Assembly: GCA_017881265.1 (NCBI GenBank) | Contig: JADGRA010000015.1 | Coordinates: 1-64,000, forward strand | From: Myxococcaceae bacterium | GTDB taxonomy: Bacteria > Myxococcota > Myxococcia > Myxococcales > Myxococcaceae | DNA: 64,000 nucleotides | Direction: 5' to 3' | Part shown: positions 248 through 10,136 of the stretch, in pieces | Layout: each line of letters opens with the position of its first letter | How positions within the stretch are numbered: the first letter of the stretch is position 1 | Translations under genes and position numbers: made by a program | The notes under the pieces: generated by a model | What the model saw: the letters and a program-made list of their open reading frames with translations, nothing else | Databases searched by the model: none | Told to the model about the DNA's origin: nothing

Positions 248-415
248 TCAGCGGTCTGATCTCTGACCTCGAGTGAAGGCCTCGACTTCGTTGAGTCGGA
301 TACGGATCGCGTTGCTCACGCGCACATGAGCGAGTTGGCCTCGCCGACAGAGGCCGTAGACGGTGAAGGGCGCCACCCCCGCAGTAGCTGCGCGGCTTCG
401 CGAACGCTCAAGAGT
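248..415 (-). pseudogene. HTH_17 / excisionase (Xis/MerR-like) DNA-binding domain, frameshifted
   Basis: Two overlapping minus-strand frames join to LLSVREAAQLLR | GVAPFTVYGLCRRGQLAHVRVSNAIRIRLNEVEAF, with the switch at a GGGGG run near 377. Confidence 0.65.
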
Positions 416-637: not shown

Positions 638-679
638 CCTCCGGAGCCGAAGTCCACTGGTTCGAGTCCAGTATCGCGC
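638..679 (+). repeat. 3' half of a tRNA-Arg(CCG)-like sequence (left copy; possible att site)
   Basis: CTCCGGA anticodon loop, GCCGA stem, AGTCC variable loop, ACTGG-TTCGAGT-CCAGT T-arm (5 bp stem, 7 nt loop), ATCGCGC acceptor strand. 37/42 identical to 3559-3600. No matching 5' half seen. Confidence 0.65.
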
Positions 680-919
680 GCAATTCCGAGGGGTTGCGCA
701 GCGGAATCACCTCCGCCAGGCCCCGTCCACAGTTCTGTCCACATTTAGGGGGACGAAGCCCGAGCTTCGAAGTGCATTCGGCTGACCTCCGGGCGGAGCT
801 GGTCGCTGTTCACCGGCCTGGAGATCGCGTGCATGAGTAGCGGGCGATGGCCTGTCTTGTGCCCAAGTAGCCGGAGAGGCTTGATTCAACATTTCGATAT
901 TGCTAGAAGGATAGAAACA

Positions 920-1282
920 TTGAAGACACAGCAAGCCATCAACGCACTCGGTGCTCTCGCTCAGGACACGCGGCTCGCAATCTACCGGTTGCTTGTTCAG
1001 ACGGGACCCGAAGGGCTCTCGGCCGGCGTCATCGGACAGAAGCTCGACGTCCCCGCCTCATCACTTTCGTTTCACCTGCACCAACTGATGCACGCGGGAC
1101 TCATCAACCAAGCGCGCGAGAGTCGGCAGCTGTTTTACGCCGCGAACTTCGACCAGATGAACGCCCTCGTCGGCTACCTCACCGAGAACTGCTGTGGTCT
1201 TGGGGCTGCGGCTTGCGCCCCGAGGCAGACCCAGCCACAAGGAGTCACCCGTGAAGCTTCTTCACGTCCACGTCGCCGTTGA
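920..1282 (+). CDS. arsR: ArsR family transcriptional regulator
   Basis: TTG start in frame; LKTQQAINALGALAQDTRLAIYRLLVQTGPEGLSAGVIGQKLDVPASSLSFHLHQLMHAGLI...NCCGL; winged HTH plus C-terminal Cys pair; next to ars genes. Confidence 0.88.
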   Translation: MKTQQAINALGALAQDTRLAIYRLLVQTGPEGLSAGVIGQKLDVPASSLSFHLHQLMHAGLINQARESRQLFYAANFDQMNALVGYLTENCCGLGAAACAPRQTQPQGVTREASSRPRRR

Positions 1283-1719
1283 GCAAATCGAACAGTCCGT
1301 CCGCTTCTACACCATCCTTTTCGGGGCATCGCCGAGCGTGCTCAAGAACGACTACGCGAAGTGGATGCTAGATGACCCCCGCGTCAATTTCGCGATTTCG
1401 TCTCGCGGCAGGAAGGCGGGCCTCGACCATCTCGGCATTCAGGTTGAGGACTCGGCCGAGCTGTCGGACGCGTATGGACGGCTCAAGGCGGCCGAGTGCC
1501 CCGTGCTCGACAGGGGGCCACGACGTGCTGCTACGCCAAGAGCGAGAAAGCGTGGATTCAGGACCCCTCAGGCATCGCCTGGGGGACCTCCTGACGAGGG
1601 GCGAGAATACAACGTATGGAGAGGATTCCGTGACGACATCGAAGAGCGAGGGTGCGTGTTGCACGCCTGAACTCGGCCGACTGCCAACCGCTGCTCCCGC
1701 GGAACCGGTCGGGCGTTAA
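1251..1719 (+). pseudogene. arsI: ArsI/CadI family glyoxalase-fold protein, two apparent frameshifts
   Basis: GTG start after AAGGAG: MKLLHVHVAVEQIEQSVRFYTILFGASPSVLKNDYAKWMLDDPRVNFAIS...GLDHLGIQVED. Continues in a second frame (QGATTCCYAKSEKAWIQDPSGIAWGTS) and a third (ENTTYGEDSVTTSKSEGACCTPEL). Confidence 0.75.
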
Positions 1720-1746
1720 CGCCACCACCAGCTGAGGACTCAGTCA

Positions 1747-2862
1747 ATGAAGACCCGTCCCAAGGGCAATCCACTCGTACGGCTGTCTCTCGTCGACCGA
1801 TTCCTCCCGCTGTGGATTCTCGCAGCCATCGGGTTAGGGCTTGTCCTCGGTCGAATGCTTCCGGGGCTCCCCCAAGCCCTCGACGCGTTCAAGGTCGGCG
1901 GGGTGTCGATCCCAATTGCGATTGGGCTCTTCTGGATGATGTACCCGGTGCTCGCGCGTGTCCGGTACGGCGAGCTGTCCCATTTTAGAAAGCGCGGGGG
2001 TCTCCTCGCCACGTCGCTCGTGCTCAACTGGTTCGTCGGGCCCGTCCTGATGTTTGCCTTGGCGTGGCTTCTCCTGCCAGACCTGCCGCACTACCGCACA
2101 GGACTCATCCTGATTGGCCTCGCGCGGTGCATTGCAATGGTCCTTGTCTGGAACATGCTTGCCCGCGGCAGCGGGGAGGTGGCAGCCGTGCTCGTCGCGC
2201 TCAACGCGCTCTTCCAAATCGCTTTCTATTCGCTCCTCGGGTGGCTCTTCATCAGCGTCGTGCCGACGTGGCTAGGTGCGAACGGCGCAGCGTTTCACGT
2301 GAGCGTTTGGACCATCGCCAAAAGCGTGCTCCTCTTCCTCGGCCTGCCCCTACTCGCTGGCGCGCTAACTCGCACTCTCGGCGAGCGCGCGCGTGGACGA
2401 ATTTGGTACGAGCAGAAGTTCCTGCCCCGGCTCGGGCCAACCGCGCTGCTCGCGTTGCTCTACACCATCGTCCTGATGTTCACGATGCAGGGGGACCGCC
2501 TCACCAGGCTTCCCGTGGACGTCGTCCGAATTGCGCTGCCCCTCGTCCTCTACTTCGCGCTCATGTTCGGCGGTTCGTTCCTCCTCGCTTGGCGCCTCGG
2601 GTTCTCGTACGAGGATACGGCCTCGCTGTCGTTTACGGCGGCTGGGAACAACTTCGAACTCGCCATTGCCGTAGCCATCGGGACATTTGGCATCTCATCA
2701 GGAGAGGCGCTTGCCGGCGTGGTTGGCCCACTCGTTGAAGTCCCGGCGCTCATCGCGCTCGTGTACCTCTCCCTCTGGTTGAAGGCACGACTCTTCCCCG
2801 AGGTGACAGAGGGGATGCCGGCCAATCGCGTGCTGACGCGTGCCCGTAACCCGCTGGTCTAG
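1747..2862 (+). CDS. acr3: ACR3 family arsenite efflux transporter
   Basis: 371 aa, multi-TM, GLILIGLARCIAMVLVWN (conserved Cys motif), LVALNALFQ; ars context. Confidence 0.93.
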   Translation: MKTRPKGNPLVRLSLVDRFLPLWILAAIGLGLVLGRMLPGLPQALDAFKVGGVSIPIAIGLFWMMYPVLARVRYGELSHFRKRGGLLATSLVLNWFVGPVLMFALAWLLLPDLPHYRTGLILIGLARCIAMVLVWNMLARGSGEVAAVLVALNALFQIAFYSLLGWLFISVVPTWLGANGAAFHVSVWTIAKSVLLFLGLPLLAGALTRTLGERARGRIWYEQKFLPRLGPTALLALLYTIVLMFTMQGDRLTRLPVDVVRIALPLVLYFALMFGGSFLLAWRLGFSYEDTASLSFTAAGNNFELAIAVAIGTFGISSGEALAGVVGPLVEVPALIALVYLSLWLKARLFPEVTEGMPANRVLTRARNPLV

Positions 2863-2877
2863 TTCCGAGGTGAGAGA

Positions 2878-3420
2878 GTGAATTCAGCCAAGCCCTTCAA
2901 GGTTCTCTTCTTGTGCACAGGCAACTCGGCTCGCAGCGTGATGGCAGAGTACTTCCTGAGACGGCTGGGTCGCGGCGCGTTCGAGGTGTACAGCGCCGGT
3001 GCTCAGCCGAAGGGCGTCGTCCACCCGCTCACACTCAAGACACTCCAGGAGAAATTCCACATCGACGCCTCGGACGCCCGCAGCAAGTCCTGGGACGAGT
3101 TCAAGGGCGTGGAGTTCGATTTCGTCATCACGGTCTGCGACAACGCGCGTGAGTCGTGCCCGGTTTGGCCTGGTCAGCCGATTATCGCGCACTGGGGGCT
3201 GGAAGACCCAGCCGCCTTTGTAGGGCCGGCGGAGGCAAAGGAACGCCTTTTCAATAGGGTCGCTCTCGAGGCGTACCGCCGAATTCAAATCCTGACCTCT
3301 CTCCCATTGGCGAAGTTGGATCGGCTCCGTGTCGAGCGGCTGGTCAAACGAATCGGGACGGAGCCAGAGGCCGTCGCTTCGGAAGCTGGCGCGACCTCCG
3401 ACGGGCGCCGTCTCGACTAG
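2878..3420 (+). CDS. arsC: Arsenate reductase, thioredoxin-coupled LMW-PTP type
   Basis: LFLCTGNSARSVMAEYFLRRLG P-loop and ITVCDNARESCPVWPG Cys pair. Confidence 0.92.
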   Translation: MNSAKPFKVLFLCTGNSARSVMAEYFLRRLGRGAFEVYSAGAQPKGVVHPLTLKTLQEKFHIDASDARSKSWDEFKGVEFDFVITVCDNARESCPVWPGQPIIAHWGLEDPAAFVGPAEAKERLFNRVALEAYRRIQILTSLPLAKLDRLRVERLVKRIGTEPEAVASEAGATSDGRRLD

Positions 3421-3558
3421 GTGGCAGGCTAAAGGTGAAACGCCGGTAGGCGTCCACGCAGCTCTCGAGGCGAAGGAAGCCTGGCCACCGTTCATCGAGC
3501 AGTAATGCCACCGGTCTGCGGTTGGCGCGCCATTGCCGTATTGCCACGACTTAGCGCA

Positions 3559-3600
3559 CCTCCGAAGCCGAAGCCCATTGGTTCGACTCCAGTCTCGCGC
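3559..3600 (+). repeat. 3' half of a tRNA-Arg(CCG)-like sequence (right copy; possible att site)
   Basis: CTCCGAA loop, GCCGA stem, AGCCC, ATTGG-TTCGACT-CCAGT T-arm, CTCGCGC acceptor strand; direct repeat of 638-679. Confidence 0.65.
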
Positions 3601-3650: not shown

Positions 3651-4304
3651 TCAGGTTGGCGTGAGACGGCCAAAGTCTGTGGTGGGCTGCGTGCTGTTGA
3701 GCCGAATCATTGCCCGGTCCTGAACACCTGAAAAAAGAACGAGTGCCAGGATGGCCCCCACCAGGGCTGTCGCCATATCTTCTTGAGTATCCCAGGGGTC
3801 GCCCTGTGTCCCTAAGAAGGCATCGGCACTCTGCCCTAGCCCGACCGCGGCTCGCCATTCCAGAAGCTCATACATCGCGCTTCCGGCAAGACAGACACAG
3901 ACCGTCAGGAAGAAGAGCCATCCGCCCCGCCGCAGCGGAGTAGCTCGGAGGAGGACTTCCCGCGTCACCAGCGCGGGAACGAATCCCTGGAAAAAGTGGC
4001 CGAGGCGGTCATAGTTGTTGCGTGTCCATCCAAAGGCGCTTTGAGCCCAGAAGCCCAACGGGACCTCGGCGTATGTGTAGTGGCCTCCTACGAAAAGCAC
4101 GCAGGCGTGTAATGCAATGAGTCCATATGCAAGGTTGGTGAGACGCATTCGCCGGTAGGTAAGGAGCAGCACGGGCAGAGCGACGAGAAAAGGAGCAACC
4201 TCGAGCCACCAAGTGAGCCGATCCTTCGGATGAATGCCAGATGCCACGAGCGCCACGGCATCGGTCAAAAGCAAGATGAGAGGGAATGCGTCGCGACGGT
4301 GCAT
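3651..4304 (-). CDS. DUF2238 (YjdF-like) integral membrane protein
   Basis: MHRRDAFPLILLLTDAVALVASG...GGHYTYAEVPLGFW...NNYDRLGHFFQGFVPALVTREVLLR...GQSADAFLGTQGDPWDTQEDM. Confidence 0.85.
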   Translation of the reverse strand: MHRRDAFPLILLLTDAVALVASGIHPKDRLTWWLEVAPFLVALPVLLLTYRRMRLTNLAYGLIALHACVLFVGGHYTYAEVPLGFWAQSAFGWTRNNYDRLGHFFQGFVPALVTREVLLRATPLRRGGWLFFLTVCVCLAGSAMYELLEWRAAVGLGQSADAFLGTQGDPWDTQEDMATALVGAILALVLFSGVQDRAMIRLNSTQPTTDFGRLTPT

Positions 4305-4336
4305 GGCAATGAGGTTCCCCGGAACGTCTTTGAAGG

Positions 4337-5047
4337 GTGTCTGGGACAATCGTAAGTCCAAAAGGTGTAGGACACGGACTACAGGGGGCCCACCGCGTGG
4401 CACACTGGTTACTGTCCCTGGTGGCGTGGGCGAGGCAGGCCGGGCCGGCCGGCGCGGCCGTCTACGGCCTTGGCTACGTGCTCGGGACGTTGCTGTTTGT
4501 TCCGGGCTCTGTGCTGACGCTACTCGCGGGCTTCCTTTATGGGCTCGCCGGAGGCCTGGCCGTGGTGGTGCCCAGCAGCCTCCTCGGGGCCCTGTTGGCG
4601 TTCCTCCTCGGCCGCACCGTGGCCCGCGCGCCGGTCTTGCGCCTGATTCAGCGCCACCGGCGCTTCCGCGCGGTGGACCAGGCCATCTCGGCCGAGGCTT
4701 TCCGGGTGGTGCTGCTGTTGCGCCTCTCGCCCGTCTTCCCCTTCAACCTCCTCAACTATGGCCTCGGGGTGACGGGGGTCAGCCTCCGTACCTACCTGCT
4801 CGGGACGGCGCTGGGCGTGCTTCCCGGGGCGGTGCTGTACGTCTACCTTGGTAGCCTCCTCACCACCGCCACGGAAGCCCTCGCGGGGCGTCCCTCCGCC
4901 GGCTGGGCGGGGAGGCTGCTTTTCGCCGCGGGCCTCGTCGCCACCGCGGCGGTGGTGGTGCTTGTCAGCCGGGCCGCCCGACGTGCCCTGGAGGCGAAGC
5001 TAGGGGAGGAGGCCCCGGGCGCGGGGCCGCCGTCATCGGGCGGGTGA
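4337..5047 (+). CDS. TVP38/TMEM64 family (VTT domain) membrane protein
   Basis: YVLGTLLFVPGSVLTLLAGFLYG...LLLRLSPVFPFNLLNYGLGVTGV; exact start uncertain. Confidence 0.85.
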   Translation: MSGTIVSPKGVGHGLQGAHRVAHWLLSLVAWARQAGPAGAAVYGLGYVLGTLLFVPGSVLTLLAGFLYGLAGGLAVVVPSSLLGALLAFLLGRTVARAPVLRLIQRHRRFRAVDQAISAEAFRVVLLLRLSPVFPFNLLNYGLGVTGVSLRTYLLGTALGVLPGAVLYVYLGSLLTTATEALAGRPSAGWAGRLLFAAGLVATAAVVVLVSRAARRALEAKLGEEAPGAGPPSSGG

Positions 5048-6012: not shown

Positions 6013-7938
6013 CTACTTCCCCACCACCGTCAGCACGCCGCCATTCATGGTGTAGGTGCGCCCCTGGCCGTCCACGGTGACGGGCGTGTAGGCAGCCCCC
6101 AGGGACTTCAGCAGGAAGCGACTCTGCGCCAGCGTGCCCCCCTGCAGAATGGCGTAGGCGCGCCCGTCCTCACTGTTGGCGTACACCGTCCCATTCTCAT
6201 CGACGGCCGCCGCGTTGACGCACCACTCGAAGCCGCTAGGGTGGTCCGAGACGCACGCCAGGTTGCCGCCCGCGTCGCGCGTGCAGGAGAAGGTGTTGGT
6301 GGCGGTGTAGCTCCACTGCTTCTGCAGGTTGCTGCCCAGCTGCGTCAGCGCGTAGGGGCCGACGGCGTTGCTGTACCAGCTGCCGTAGTGGTTGTCCTTG
6401 ACGAGGATGCTGTAGCTGCCCGCGTTGGGCCACACCGCCGGCGTCTGGTCCCAGCCGTCGTCGAAGGTGGCCACCAGCTTGCCGGTGGCGTCGAACTTCA
6501 CCAGGTGTCCCCGGTAGTTGTTGTAGTAGTTGAAGCCGCCGTAGAGGACGGCCCCGTCCGGGAGCACCACCGGCGAGGACGTCGACTGGTCGCTCACCTC
6601 CACCGAGGGCCGCTGCCCGGTGTACGGGTCGACGCCGCGCGGAGCGCCCACCCGGCAGTGGTTGTAGTCGGCGCCGCCGTCCGGCAGCGCCCCGTTGGGC
6701 GCGCTGTCGGCGGGGATGAGGACTCCGCAGCCGTCGTCGAGAATCTCCTGCAGCGAGGCGCTCCACTTGGGCGTCAGGTTCGGCTGCAGCGCCAGCAGCA
6801 CCCCGGCGTTGGGGGCGTTGTGGGGGAAGGCCACGGTGAAGATGGTGCCGTCCGGGCCCACCGCCGGGGCCACGTTGAGGCCGGGCCGGAGCGAGCCGCA
6901 GGTGACGGTGACGCGGTGGTCGTCCGCCGGCGGCCACGGGAAGGGCGACCCGCTCGAGCCCTCGTCGTAATAGCCGCCGAGGCAGCCGCCGTCCGCTGCC
7001 GGCGGGTTCTGCATCAGCGCCGGGTAGTCCACGAAGTCCACCGCGCCGGCCGGCGTGATGCGCACCAGCACGCCCTTCACGTCCGAGAGGTCCGGCGCGA
7101 CGTGGACGACGTTGTACAGAAGCGTGCCGTCCGCGGCGACGGTGAGGGGGCCGGCGACGAAGGTGTTGCCATCCACCGTGGAACCAAAGGGGTTGAATTG
7201 CGCCAGCTTGGCCATGCTGTGCCGGTCCACCTGGTACACCGTGCCGCCCGCGCCCGGCACCCACACCACGTTGCCGTCCAGCGCGGCGTGGAAGACGGGC
7301 TCCCAGAAGGCGAAGTTTCCGGGCACCGGCGTCCAGTCGCTCTCGAAGCTGGCCACCTGCACCAATGCGCCGGCCTGCCAGCGGTAGTACGTCTCCGCCC
7401 ATACCTGGGTGTCCCAGGCCTGGTAGCCGCAGGGGCCACCGTCGGGCGACGTGGCCGAGACGACGTTGCCGTTGCTGTCGGTGGTGATGTTGGTGCAGCG
7501 GGTATAGGTGCCGCCCTTCGTCTCCACGTAGACGTCATCGCCAGTGACGAGCGGCGCCTGGTAGTGCACGTTGAGGTCCCCCCGGCCGCTCTGCGCCTTC
7601 GCGTCGAGGATTTCCTCGCTGACGAAAGGGTCGACGGTGAGGCTGGCCAGCACCGAGGTGAAGCCCTGGGCCGGGGCACACGCCGTCCCGGTGTGCGCGG
7701 CGTTCTGTCCCAGCTGCGTCCAGCTGCAGTCGGCGTGTGTCGTGCCGCTGCCGGGAATGGGGGCGTTGACGACGAGGCCCGGGCCGCTGTCCGGCGGGCC
7801 GGCGTCGGCGGGGGTGGAGGTAGACGCGCAGCCGAGGCCACCGAGGACACCGAAAAGGACAGCCGTGGACAGGCGGATGCGCAGTCGTCCCGAGTCCGGG
7901 CTCGACGCAAGTCTTGGAAGTCGCACGAGGAAGTCCAC
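6013..7938 (-). CDS. Secreted lipoprotein, predicted beta-propeller (PQQ-like), paralog A
   Basis: LFGVLGGLGC lipobox; repeated VGPDGTIFTVAFPHN / [14 protein letters not shown] / VDGQGRTY motifs. Start codon uncertain. Confidence 0.7.
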   Translation of the reverse strand: MDFLVRLPRLASSPDSGRLRIRLSTAVLFGVLGGLGCASTSTPADAGPPDSGPGLVVNAPIPGSGTTHADCSWTQLGQNAAHTGTACAPAQGFTSVLASLTVDPFVSEEILDAKAQSGRGDLNVHYQAPLVTGDDVYVETKGGTYTRCTNITTDSNGNVVSATSPDGGPCGYQAWDTQVWAETYYRWQAGALVQVASFESDWTPVPGNFAFWEPVFHAALDGNVVWVPGAGGTVYQVDRHSMAKLAQFNPFGSTVDGNTFVAGPLTVAADGTLLYNVVHVAPDLSDVKGVLVRITPAGAVDFVDYPALMQNPPAADGGCLGGYYDEGSSGSPFPWPPADDHRVTVTCGSLRPGLNVAPAVGPDGTIFTVAFPHNAPNAGVLLALQPNLTPKWSASLQEILDDGCGVLIPADSAPNGALPDGGADYNHCRVGAPRGVDPYTGQRPSVEVSDQSTSSPVVLPDGAVLYGGFNYYNNYRGHLVKFDATGKLVATFDDGWDQTPAVWPNAGSYSILVKDNHYGSWYSNAVGPYALTQLGSNLQKQWSYTATNTFSCTRDAGGNLACVSDHPSGFEWCVNAAAVDENGTVYANSEDGRAYAILQGGTLAQSRFLLKSLGAAYTPVTVDGQGRTYTMNGGVLTVVGK

Positions 7939-8070
7939 AAGGCCCGAAGTGGCGGCCTGCCGTCAAGGCGCTGTTTGTCCTACAGCCACCCGCCCGGGGG
8001 ATGGGGCCGTTCCGGCAGTCCCCCGGCGCACGGCGCAAACTCGCGTCCCTGCCCGGCCTCCCCGGCTGGC

Positions 8071-9897
8071 CTACTGGCCCAACACCGTCAGCACTCCGCC
8101 ATTCTGGGTGTAGGTGCGCCCTTGGCCGTCGACGGTGACGGGGGTGTAGGCCGCCCCCAGCGACTGCTGGAGGAAGCGACTCTGCGCCAGCGTGGCGCCC
8201 TGGAGGATGGCGTACACGCGCCCATCCTCGCTGTTGGCATACACCGTCCCGTTGGCGTCGACGGCGGCGGCGTTGACGCACCACTCGAAGCCGGTTGGGT
8301 GGTCGGGCTCGCAAGCAAGCGCTCCTCCCGCGCCGGGAATGCAGGACTGGGTGTTGGTGGAGGTGAAGCTCCACTGCTTCACCATGGTGGCGTCCACCTG
8401 GGTGATGTCGAACGGGCCCGTCTGCGCATTGACGTAGTTGAAGTAGTGGTTGTCCTTCACGATGGCGGCGTAGCTGCCGCCGTTAACCCACACCGCGGGC
8501 GTCTGGTCCCACCCGTCGTCGTAGCTGGCGACGAAGCGGCCGGTGGCGTCGAACTTGAGCAGGTGCCCGCGGGCGCTGTTGTAGTCGTTGAGGGCGCCGT
8601 AGAGGACGCTTCCATCGGGAAGCGCGACGGGGGACGACGTGGACTGGTCGCTCACCAGCGCCGACGGCATCTGGCCCGTCTGCGGGTCAACGCCCTGGGG
8701 CGCACCCCGCCGGCAGTGGCTGTAGGGGCCCGTGGCGGAGGCGTCGGACGGGACGGTGACGCCGCAGCCGTCGTTCAGGATTTCCTGCATGGAGGTGCTC
8801 CACTTCGGGCTCAGGTCTGCGTGCGCGGCAATCATCACGCTGGCGTTGGGCGCATTGTGCGGGAACGCGGCGGTGTACACCGTGCCGTCGGCGCCCACCG
8901 CCGGCGCGAGGTTGATGCCGGGACGGAGCGAGCCGCAGGTCACGCTGACGCGGTGGTGGTCGGGCGGCGGCCACGGCAGCGGCGTCCCGTCGTCCTGGTA
9001 CGTGCCGAGGCAGCTGCCGGTTGGGCTCGGCGGATTCACCATCAGCGCGGAGTAGTCGACCGCGTGCACCGTCACGCCATCCGGCTCGATGCGGACCAGG
9101 ACTCCGCTTGCGTCCGACAGGTCCGGGAGCACGCGCAGGACGTTGTAGAAGACCGTGCCATCCGGGGCGACGGTGAGCGGGCCCGAAACGTAGGCATTCG
9201 GGTCGACTACGGCGCCGAAGGGGTTGACCTGGGAAAGCTTCTGCATGCTGAGACGGTCCACCCGGTACACCGTGCCGCCCGCGCCAGGCACCCACAGCAC
9301 CTTGCCGTCCAGCGCGGCGTGGAAGACGGGCTCCCAGTAGGCGAGGTCTCCCGGTTCCGGCTTCCAGTCGCTCTCGAAGATGGCCACCTGCACCAGGGCG
9401 CCCGACTGCCAGTGGTAATAGGCCTCGCTCCATACTTGGCTGTCCCAGGCCTGGTAGCCGCACGGGCCGCCGCTGGCCGAAGTCGCGGTGACGTTGCCAA
9501 ACGGGCCGGTGATGAATTTGGCGCAGCGGGTGTAGGTGCCGCCCTTCAGCTCCAAGTAGACGTCATCGCCGCTGACGAGTGCCGTCTGGTAGTGCGCGAA
9601 GAGGGCCGCCTCCCCATTCTGTGCCTTGCCGTCGAGCACCTCTTGCTCGACGAAGGGGTCGACGGTGAGGGTGGCCAGCACCGAGGCGAAGCCCTGGGCC
9701 GGCGCGCAGGCCGTCCCGGTATGCGCTGCATTCTGACCGAATTGCGCCCAGCTGCAGGCGGCGTTGGTGGTACCGCTGCCCGGGATGGGCGCGTTGATGG
9801 TGAGCAGGGAGCCGGCATCCCTCCCCGGGGTGGAGGAACTGGACGAGCAGCCCAGCCAGCCGAAGCAGACAAGCAGGGCGGCACAAGAAAATCGCAT
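8071..9897 (-). CDS. Secreted lipoprotein, predicted beta-propeller (PQQ-like), paralog B
   Basis: [21 protein letters not shown] lipobox; highly similar along its length to 6013-7938. Confidence 0.72.
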
Positions 9898-10136
9898 CGG
9901 CAGGGGTCCCTCCGTGGCAGCGCCCCTGCCATACGTGGGGGGCGCTGGCAAAGCAGCGCCGCACGACGCACGAAGTCCCCGCCCTGCGTCAAGGCGCAAG
10001 CCGCCGGCCCCCGCCGGGGGCCTGGCGCGCTTGGTCTCCCCCCAAAGGGCCTTCCCCGGCATGTGGGTGGCGGGCCGGCAACGCCGGCGGTAACGAGAAG
10101 GGGTGCCGGAGCGTCTTCCTGCCAAGGACACGAGTC

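Follow-up and report, generated by a model that had tools for sequence, protein, structure and literature searches.

An arsenic-resistance islet between two displaced tRNA-Arg(CCG) 3' halves in a myxobacterial genome, and a likely family of tRNA-targeted islands with a split integrase gene

Genomic islands located at the ssrA gene of Dehalococcoides occur in tandem, and 15 of them have no integration module (PMC3146451). Cis-mobilizable elements (CIMEs) are formed by decay and accretion (PMC5704250). Islands of the Islander type, which occupy tRNA genes (tDNA), have the restored tRNA gene at one end and a displaced 3' fragment at the other, and their main subsites include an anticodon-centred one (PMC4383910). 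As for phages, attP of Mx8 lies within the integrase gene, int, and integration exchanges the last 112 residues of the integrase for 13 others; attP-based integration of the same kind has been reported for Mx9 (PMC6070905, PMC4701971).

In the present work, a locus combining arsenic-resistance (ars) genes with displaced tRNA sequences was analyzed in the first 64 kb (hereafter, the window) of a 173.7-kb contig, C33. The source genome (4.44 Mb, 81 contigs, approximately 96% complete) has its relatives among the myxobacteria. C33 begins at base 1 of the window, so that only 637 bases are retained upstream of position 638.

Displaced tRNA halves and the genes between them

Two direct repeats, designated scar 1 and scar 2 (Table 1), have the same orientation, are alike at 37 of 42 positions, and both correspond to tRNA-Arg(CCG) from its anticodon loop through its acceptor strand. 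The chance that a single random pair reaches at least 37/42 is 2e-15, which corresponds to about 1e-5 across all pairs in the window, and no third site within 16 mismatches of the 41-nt repeat core was found in the 64 kb. A covariance model, R1, was constructed from 23 intact tRNA-Arg(CCG) 3' halves of relatives, with the source-genome sequences left out. R1 matched positions 639–679 and 3560–3600 (scores in Table 1; E-values for 300 kb), and its third-best match in the window reached only 13.4 bits (E 0.24). Neither ARAGORN nor the full-length tRNA model of Rfam called a tRNA at either repeat, as expected for half genes, which are too short for the latter model. Because the R1 scores lie far above the next match in the window, the repeats are, on the basis of sequence, genuine displaced tRNA-Arg(CCG) 3' halves and not chance similarities. 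The initial annotation had described two repeats in one orientation, had assigned them to the 3' half of this tRNA, and had noted that neither has a 5' half; these three statements are confirmed.

Table 1. Features of the ars locus and its flanks (window coordinates)
Feature	Position	Strand	Details
Decayed HTH_17 (excisionase-family) domain, frameshifted	266..391	-	247 nt left of scar 1
Scar 1, displaced tRNA-Arg(CCG) 3' half	638..679	+	T-stem ACTGG/CCAGT; R1 62.2 bits, E 6e-15
Assembly fork, 100 bases identical to C29 end	847..946	+	Second upstream context of arsR
arsR	920..1282	+	ArsR/SmtB family 53 bits, just below NCBIfam cut-off 55; HTH_20
arsI, frameshifted	1250..1594	+	NF041414 (ArsI_CadI) 72 bits, partial; two frames
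acr3, arsenite efflux transporter	1747..2862	+	TIGR00832 410 bits, above cut-off
arsC, arsenate reductase of low-molecular-weight-phosphatase type	2878..3420	+	LMWPc; TIGR02691 90 bits, below cut-off
Scar 2, displaced tRNA-Arg(CCG) 3' half, diverged further	3559..3600	+	R1 51.8 bits, E 5e-12
DUF2238 membrane protein gene	3651..4403	-	60% G+C; outside scar 2, within low-G+C tract

The interval between the scars, referred to below as the ars islet, contains only arsR, arsI, acr3 and arsC; neither integration nor conjugation genes are present, and the integrase searches agreed with the earlier statement that no integrase lies within it. The previously proposed gene list is likewise supported by profile matches, except that arsI is not intact. 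The C-terminal part of ArsI, CCYAKSEKAWIQDPSGIAWGTS, is located in a different frame, and this frameshift indicates a pseudogene or a sequencing error; judged from the reading frames, ArsI is probably dead. For arsR, a TTG codon at position 920 is the likely start, while the mechanical ORF opens at 833. Arsenate would be reduced by ArsC and the resulting arsenite exported by Acr3, with ArsR as the regulator. Between arsI and acr3, at 1615–1735, there is also a short ORF that contains a CC motif (TTSKSEGACCTPELGRLPTAAPAEPVGR). The window showed no int relic on the right side of scar 1, nor did an HTH relic appear on the left side of scar 2. None of the 80 nearest acr3 loci in named genomes has a tRNA-Arg scar nearby.

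The G+C content of the islet is 62.3% versus 70.2% for the window. The islet is not alone in its low G+C content: the low-G+C tract spans base 1 to approximately 4,400 and extends beyond scar 2. To the left of scar 1, the HTH_17 relic was detected when the genome was searched at the protein level (E 3.6e-13) and reached 25.6 bits with the Pfam HTH_17 model, just below the cut-off of 27; its N-terminal part, LLSVREAAQLLRG, is in a different frame. The DNA to the right of scar 1 shows no likeness to that to the right of scar 2 beyond the 42 bases, and self-comparison of C33 gave, apart from the repeats, short matches only elsewhere. Further along the window (6013–10131, minus strand), two neighbouring large genes share 77% DNA identity over 1.77 kb and represent a tandem gene duplication.

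The fork listed in Table 1 concerns the arsR promoter region, which it joins 168 nt to the right of scar 1. The shared bases correspond to C29:17915–18014, the last 100 bases of C29, and this identity means that arsR has two different upstream contexts in the assembly, that is, two copies or two strains. Beside the shared bases, C29 contains a short reverse ORF with no Pfam match, which we take, by eye, to encode the C-terminus of a type II NADH dehydrogenase. In an overlap search of scar-bearing contig ends, this fork was the only informative join.

Origin of the scars and of the ars islet

The intact tRNA-Arg(CCG) gene that the initial annotation had proposed to look for was found at C70:19525–19598, and its 3' half is similar to the scars. 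A fragment of a tyrosine-integrase gene (int) is located on the opposite strand, 194 nt from the 3' end of the tRNA gene. In the related genome G011, a complete element occupies the same tRNA, and the fragment shares 60% identity with its int over 145 aa; the match holds a stop. The fragment is cut at the contig end by a transposase-like sequence, of which C4 and C5 carry copies of approximately 90% identity; from reading of the protein, this sequence is presumably of the IS256 type. To the left of the tRNA gene, synteny with the relatives G006 and G026 is conserved for two genes, one for a kinase and one for a cupin. The intact tRNA and the displaced halves both occur in the genome, on separate contigs, and C70 and C33 are unjoined in the assembly.

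Further scars of the same tRNA half were found on C35, C37, C79 and C31, and a weak candidate at C29:15265. C79 also has an HTH_17 relic, 145 nt inward from its scar and in the same geometry as at C33. The T-stem of the well-kept scars, ACTGG/CCAGT, is that of the intact tRNA of G026, whereas the intact tRNA of the source genome itself has ATCGG/CCGAT. Such a mismatch is predicted by serial integration, in which each new element restores the tRNA gene with the 3' half that it carries and displaces the half that was there before. The assignment of all scars to one locus was considered and rejected: most copies lie no more than 3.2 kb from contig ends, but that at C31:142142 is internal. The location of the dispersed scars near contig ends suggests that the assembly broke within a variable region.

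Other traces of the same kind were observed in the source genome. Near an opposite-strand tRNA gene (Gly, His, Phe, Arg) lie four of the six integrase-family matches above cut-off, on C6, C49, C52 and C70. More HTH_17 relics of the same family are clustered at C39:2638–4344, C12:9776–10052 and C79:25174–31332, with a weak tRNA-like match among those on C39.

Many of the 145 genomes of the order carry two or three tRNA-Arg(CCG) 3' halves on one contig and strand, at distances of 1.4–56 kb. A complete 8.7-kb element in G042 has the order tRNA, int, ..., HTH_17, displaced half. In G011, two elements are arranged in tandem: the tRNA gene is followed by element A and a second half, then by the int ... 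HTH_17 of element B and a third half. The order tRNA-int...HTH-half is common to G042, G011 and G041, and is found in decayed form in G043. The interval between halves in G026 (3.9 kb) contains a kinase gene only and no integrase, and the 1.4-kb pairs in G139 and G103 resemble tandem duplications. The G011 and G026 arrangements show that tandem accretion and integrase-less intervals both occur at tRNA-Arg(CCG) in this order. Thus, the tandem array suggested earlier for this site is matched by recurrent, sometimes tandem, integration at the same tRNA in relatives. The repeat pair of the ars locus was found at this locus in none of the relatives examined, and none of them provided the empty, ars-free site; nor could this site be rebuilt, because the G006 genes to the right of tRNA-Arg have no DNA match in the source genome.

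Taken together, it appears moderately probable that the scars are attachment scars of tyrosine-integrase elements and that the ars islet is an older, CIME-like leftover of tandem accretion between them. According to this account, an element would bring along a tRNA 3' half of its own; integration would restore the tRNA gene with that half and move the host half to the far end. C33 and C70 match the geometry of the complete elements of relatives, although on two contigs: HTH_17 lies just inside the far scar, int lies just inside the near attachment site, and each is antisense to the tRNA. Since the HTH_17 relic lies to the left of scar 1, in the order seen in the 6–13 kb elements of relatives, scar 1 would be a far scar and the ars islet would lie outside the element. 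The near end of this element would be the tRNA gene of C70 with its int fragment, which presupposes a physical link between C70 and C33. The element ending at scar 1 would have arrived after the ars islet, and the islet may represent an older unit, extending from scar 1 to the more diverged scar 2, with no integrase or HTH end of its own. Less certain than the other steps is that the ars genes may have been the cargo of the element that produced scar 2. The islet has att-like tRNA halves on both sides in direct orientation, as in a CIME, and what lies next to it of an element using the same site is only the decayed HTH_17 end, the contig stopping 637 bases upstream.

Against the accretion account stand the unjoined state of C70 and C33, the low G+C content past scar 2, the second context of arsR, the missing empty site and the absence of int and HTH relics from the islet. 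The proposal of the initial annotation that an ars cassette was delivered or trapped at a tRNA-Arg site is upheld as regards the integration site; its delivery as one unit bounded by the repeats is unproven, given that the low-G+C tract continues beyond scar 2, that C29 offers arsR another upstream context, and that no relative with the empty site was found. Several of these observations would fit a later insertion, in which the scars are real and the ars operon entered between or across them by homologous or illegitimate recombination or through insertion sequences; its borders would then lie near positions 847 and 4,400. The fork at 847, the low-G+C tract that scar 2 does not bound and the islet free of int and HTH relics all agree with such an event; however, the ars genes occupy nearly the whole scar-to-scar interval, and integrase-less scar intervals are known at the same tRNA in G026, which leaves a later insertion rather unlikely.

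A tandem duplication of a segment with one scar, followed by divergence, would resemble the 1.4-kb pairs of G139 and G103, which look like such products; the right flanks of scars 1 and 2, however, are unlike beyond 42 bases, and we give this explanation very little weight. Finally, a chance likeness to a tRNA half, or a repeat unrelated to tRNA, would agree with the silence of the full-length Rfam model, but it is refuted by the independent R1 model, since the Infernal-type scoring named beforehand as able to expose chance matches gave E-values of 6e-15 and 5e-12, so that its probability is negligible.

Elements with a probable split int-HTH_17 gene

To interpret the HTH relic beside scar 1, a sample of 40 integrase loci of the order was analyzed. 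In 22 of these loci, a direct repeat of 18–93 nt between the integrase-side flank and the interior was taken as candidate borders. An HTH_17 domain is located 133–283 nt inside the far repeat in 20 of the 22 bounded elements; in G028 and G019, the border repeat is present with no HTH_17 match beside it. When the circular attP was rebuilt, int and HTH_17 formed one open frame in all 20 cases (20/20), with a stop just after HTH_17. These 20 include the G042 element (L226) and element B of G011 (L224), both found earlier, the others being among L236–L275; the tRNA-Arg element of G041 (L066/L067) is a 21st with in-frame int-HTH_17. As for the decayed pairs at tRNA-Arg, int and HTH_17 are not in frame in G043 or in C70/C33. 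The frame of the C70/C33 pair is no longer informative, because the HTH relic is frameshifted and the int match contains a stop.

The reading frame of the core varies among elements with different tRNA targets, so that the in-frame int-HTH_17 arrangement is not forced by one tRNA sequence. By our own count and estimate, agreement of frame by chance would have a probability of roughly (1/3)^14 for about 14 distinct core groups, some of the elements being close kin. The integrase of phage Mx9, in its unintegrated form, consists of a tyrosine recombinase with a C-terminal HTH_17 at residues 489–537 of 548 aa.

We consider it likely that these elements constitute an order-wide family of compact tRNA-targeted islands, with attP inside one int-HTH_17 gene that is cut at each integration, and that this arrangement is a general built-in switch of integrase form; the HTH relic together with scar 1 would then be one severed end. 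After integration, Int would stay at the tRNA, its tail now being encoded by the antisense strand of the tRNA gene, and the C-terminal HTH would be left at the far scar. The Mx8/Mx9 case is known; what seems to be new is that a split int-HTH_17 gene would be the norm in a large family of tRNA-targeted islands of 6–13 kb. No published description of a split int-HTH_17 gene in such islands was found in a literature search that covered mostly papers accessible without subscription.

The possibility that HTH_17 is itself the excisionase was also considered and found less likely, as the domain is fused to the integrase in Mx9. A separate excisionase-family gene is located beside int in the two elements checked for it; this favours viewing HTH_17 as a C-terminal Int domain that can be detached. 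A search for the integrase in viral contigs and plasmids revealed no close relative. In many of these elements (L263, L264, L260, L267, L268, L269 and L275), a second direct repeat of 19–24 nt was observed approximately 110–150 nt inside both attachment sites; these short repeats are possibly arm-type binding sites of the integrase.

Significance and comparison with known systems

The ars islet represents resistance genes held between integration scars without an enzyme of their own, and island finders that require an integrase would miss such intervals. The by-product of the analysis, the split integrase, may matter more than the islet. As a rule, a displaced tRNA half probably marks the far end of a split-integrase element if HTH_17 lies a few hundred bases inward from it, and this combination can be used to map mobile DNA in myxobacteria. 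In addition, the idea of an integrase switch, formulated for Mx8, becomes testable on many small natural elements.

The locus appears to have features in common with the Dehalococcoides ssrA islands: several islands follow one another at a single RNA gene, copies of the 3' end of that gene delimit each of them, and some of the intervals carry adaptive genes and no integrase. The Dehalococcoides islands use ssrA and a serine integrase, whereas the site here is tRNA-Arg(CCG) and the enzyme a tyrosine integrase. Like a CIME, the ars islet has an att-like site on both sides, contains no integration or transfer genes, and lies beside what appear to be relics of another element using the same site. 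It differs from a CIME in that no live neighbouring element was seen at the islet and the att-like sites are putative. With the Islander-type islands, the elements described here share the restored tRNA and the displaced 3' fragment at their ends as well as the anticodon-centred site; the Islander method would reject the ars islet because it requires an integrase in the interval. The scar-making elements also resemble Mx8 and Mx9 (PMC6070905, PMC4701971) in having an int of the same family (37% identity over 282 aa between Mx9 Int and the int of the element family) that is cut by integration, with the C-terminal HTH_17 beyond the crossover. Mx8 and Mx9 are 50-kb phages, whereas the elements considered here are compact islands of 6–13 kb at many tRNA genes, the copies in the source genome being decayed.
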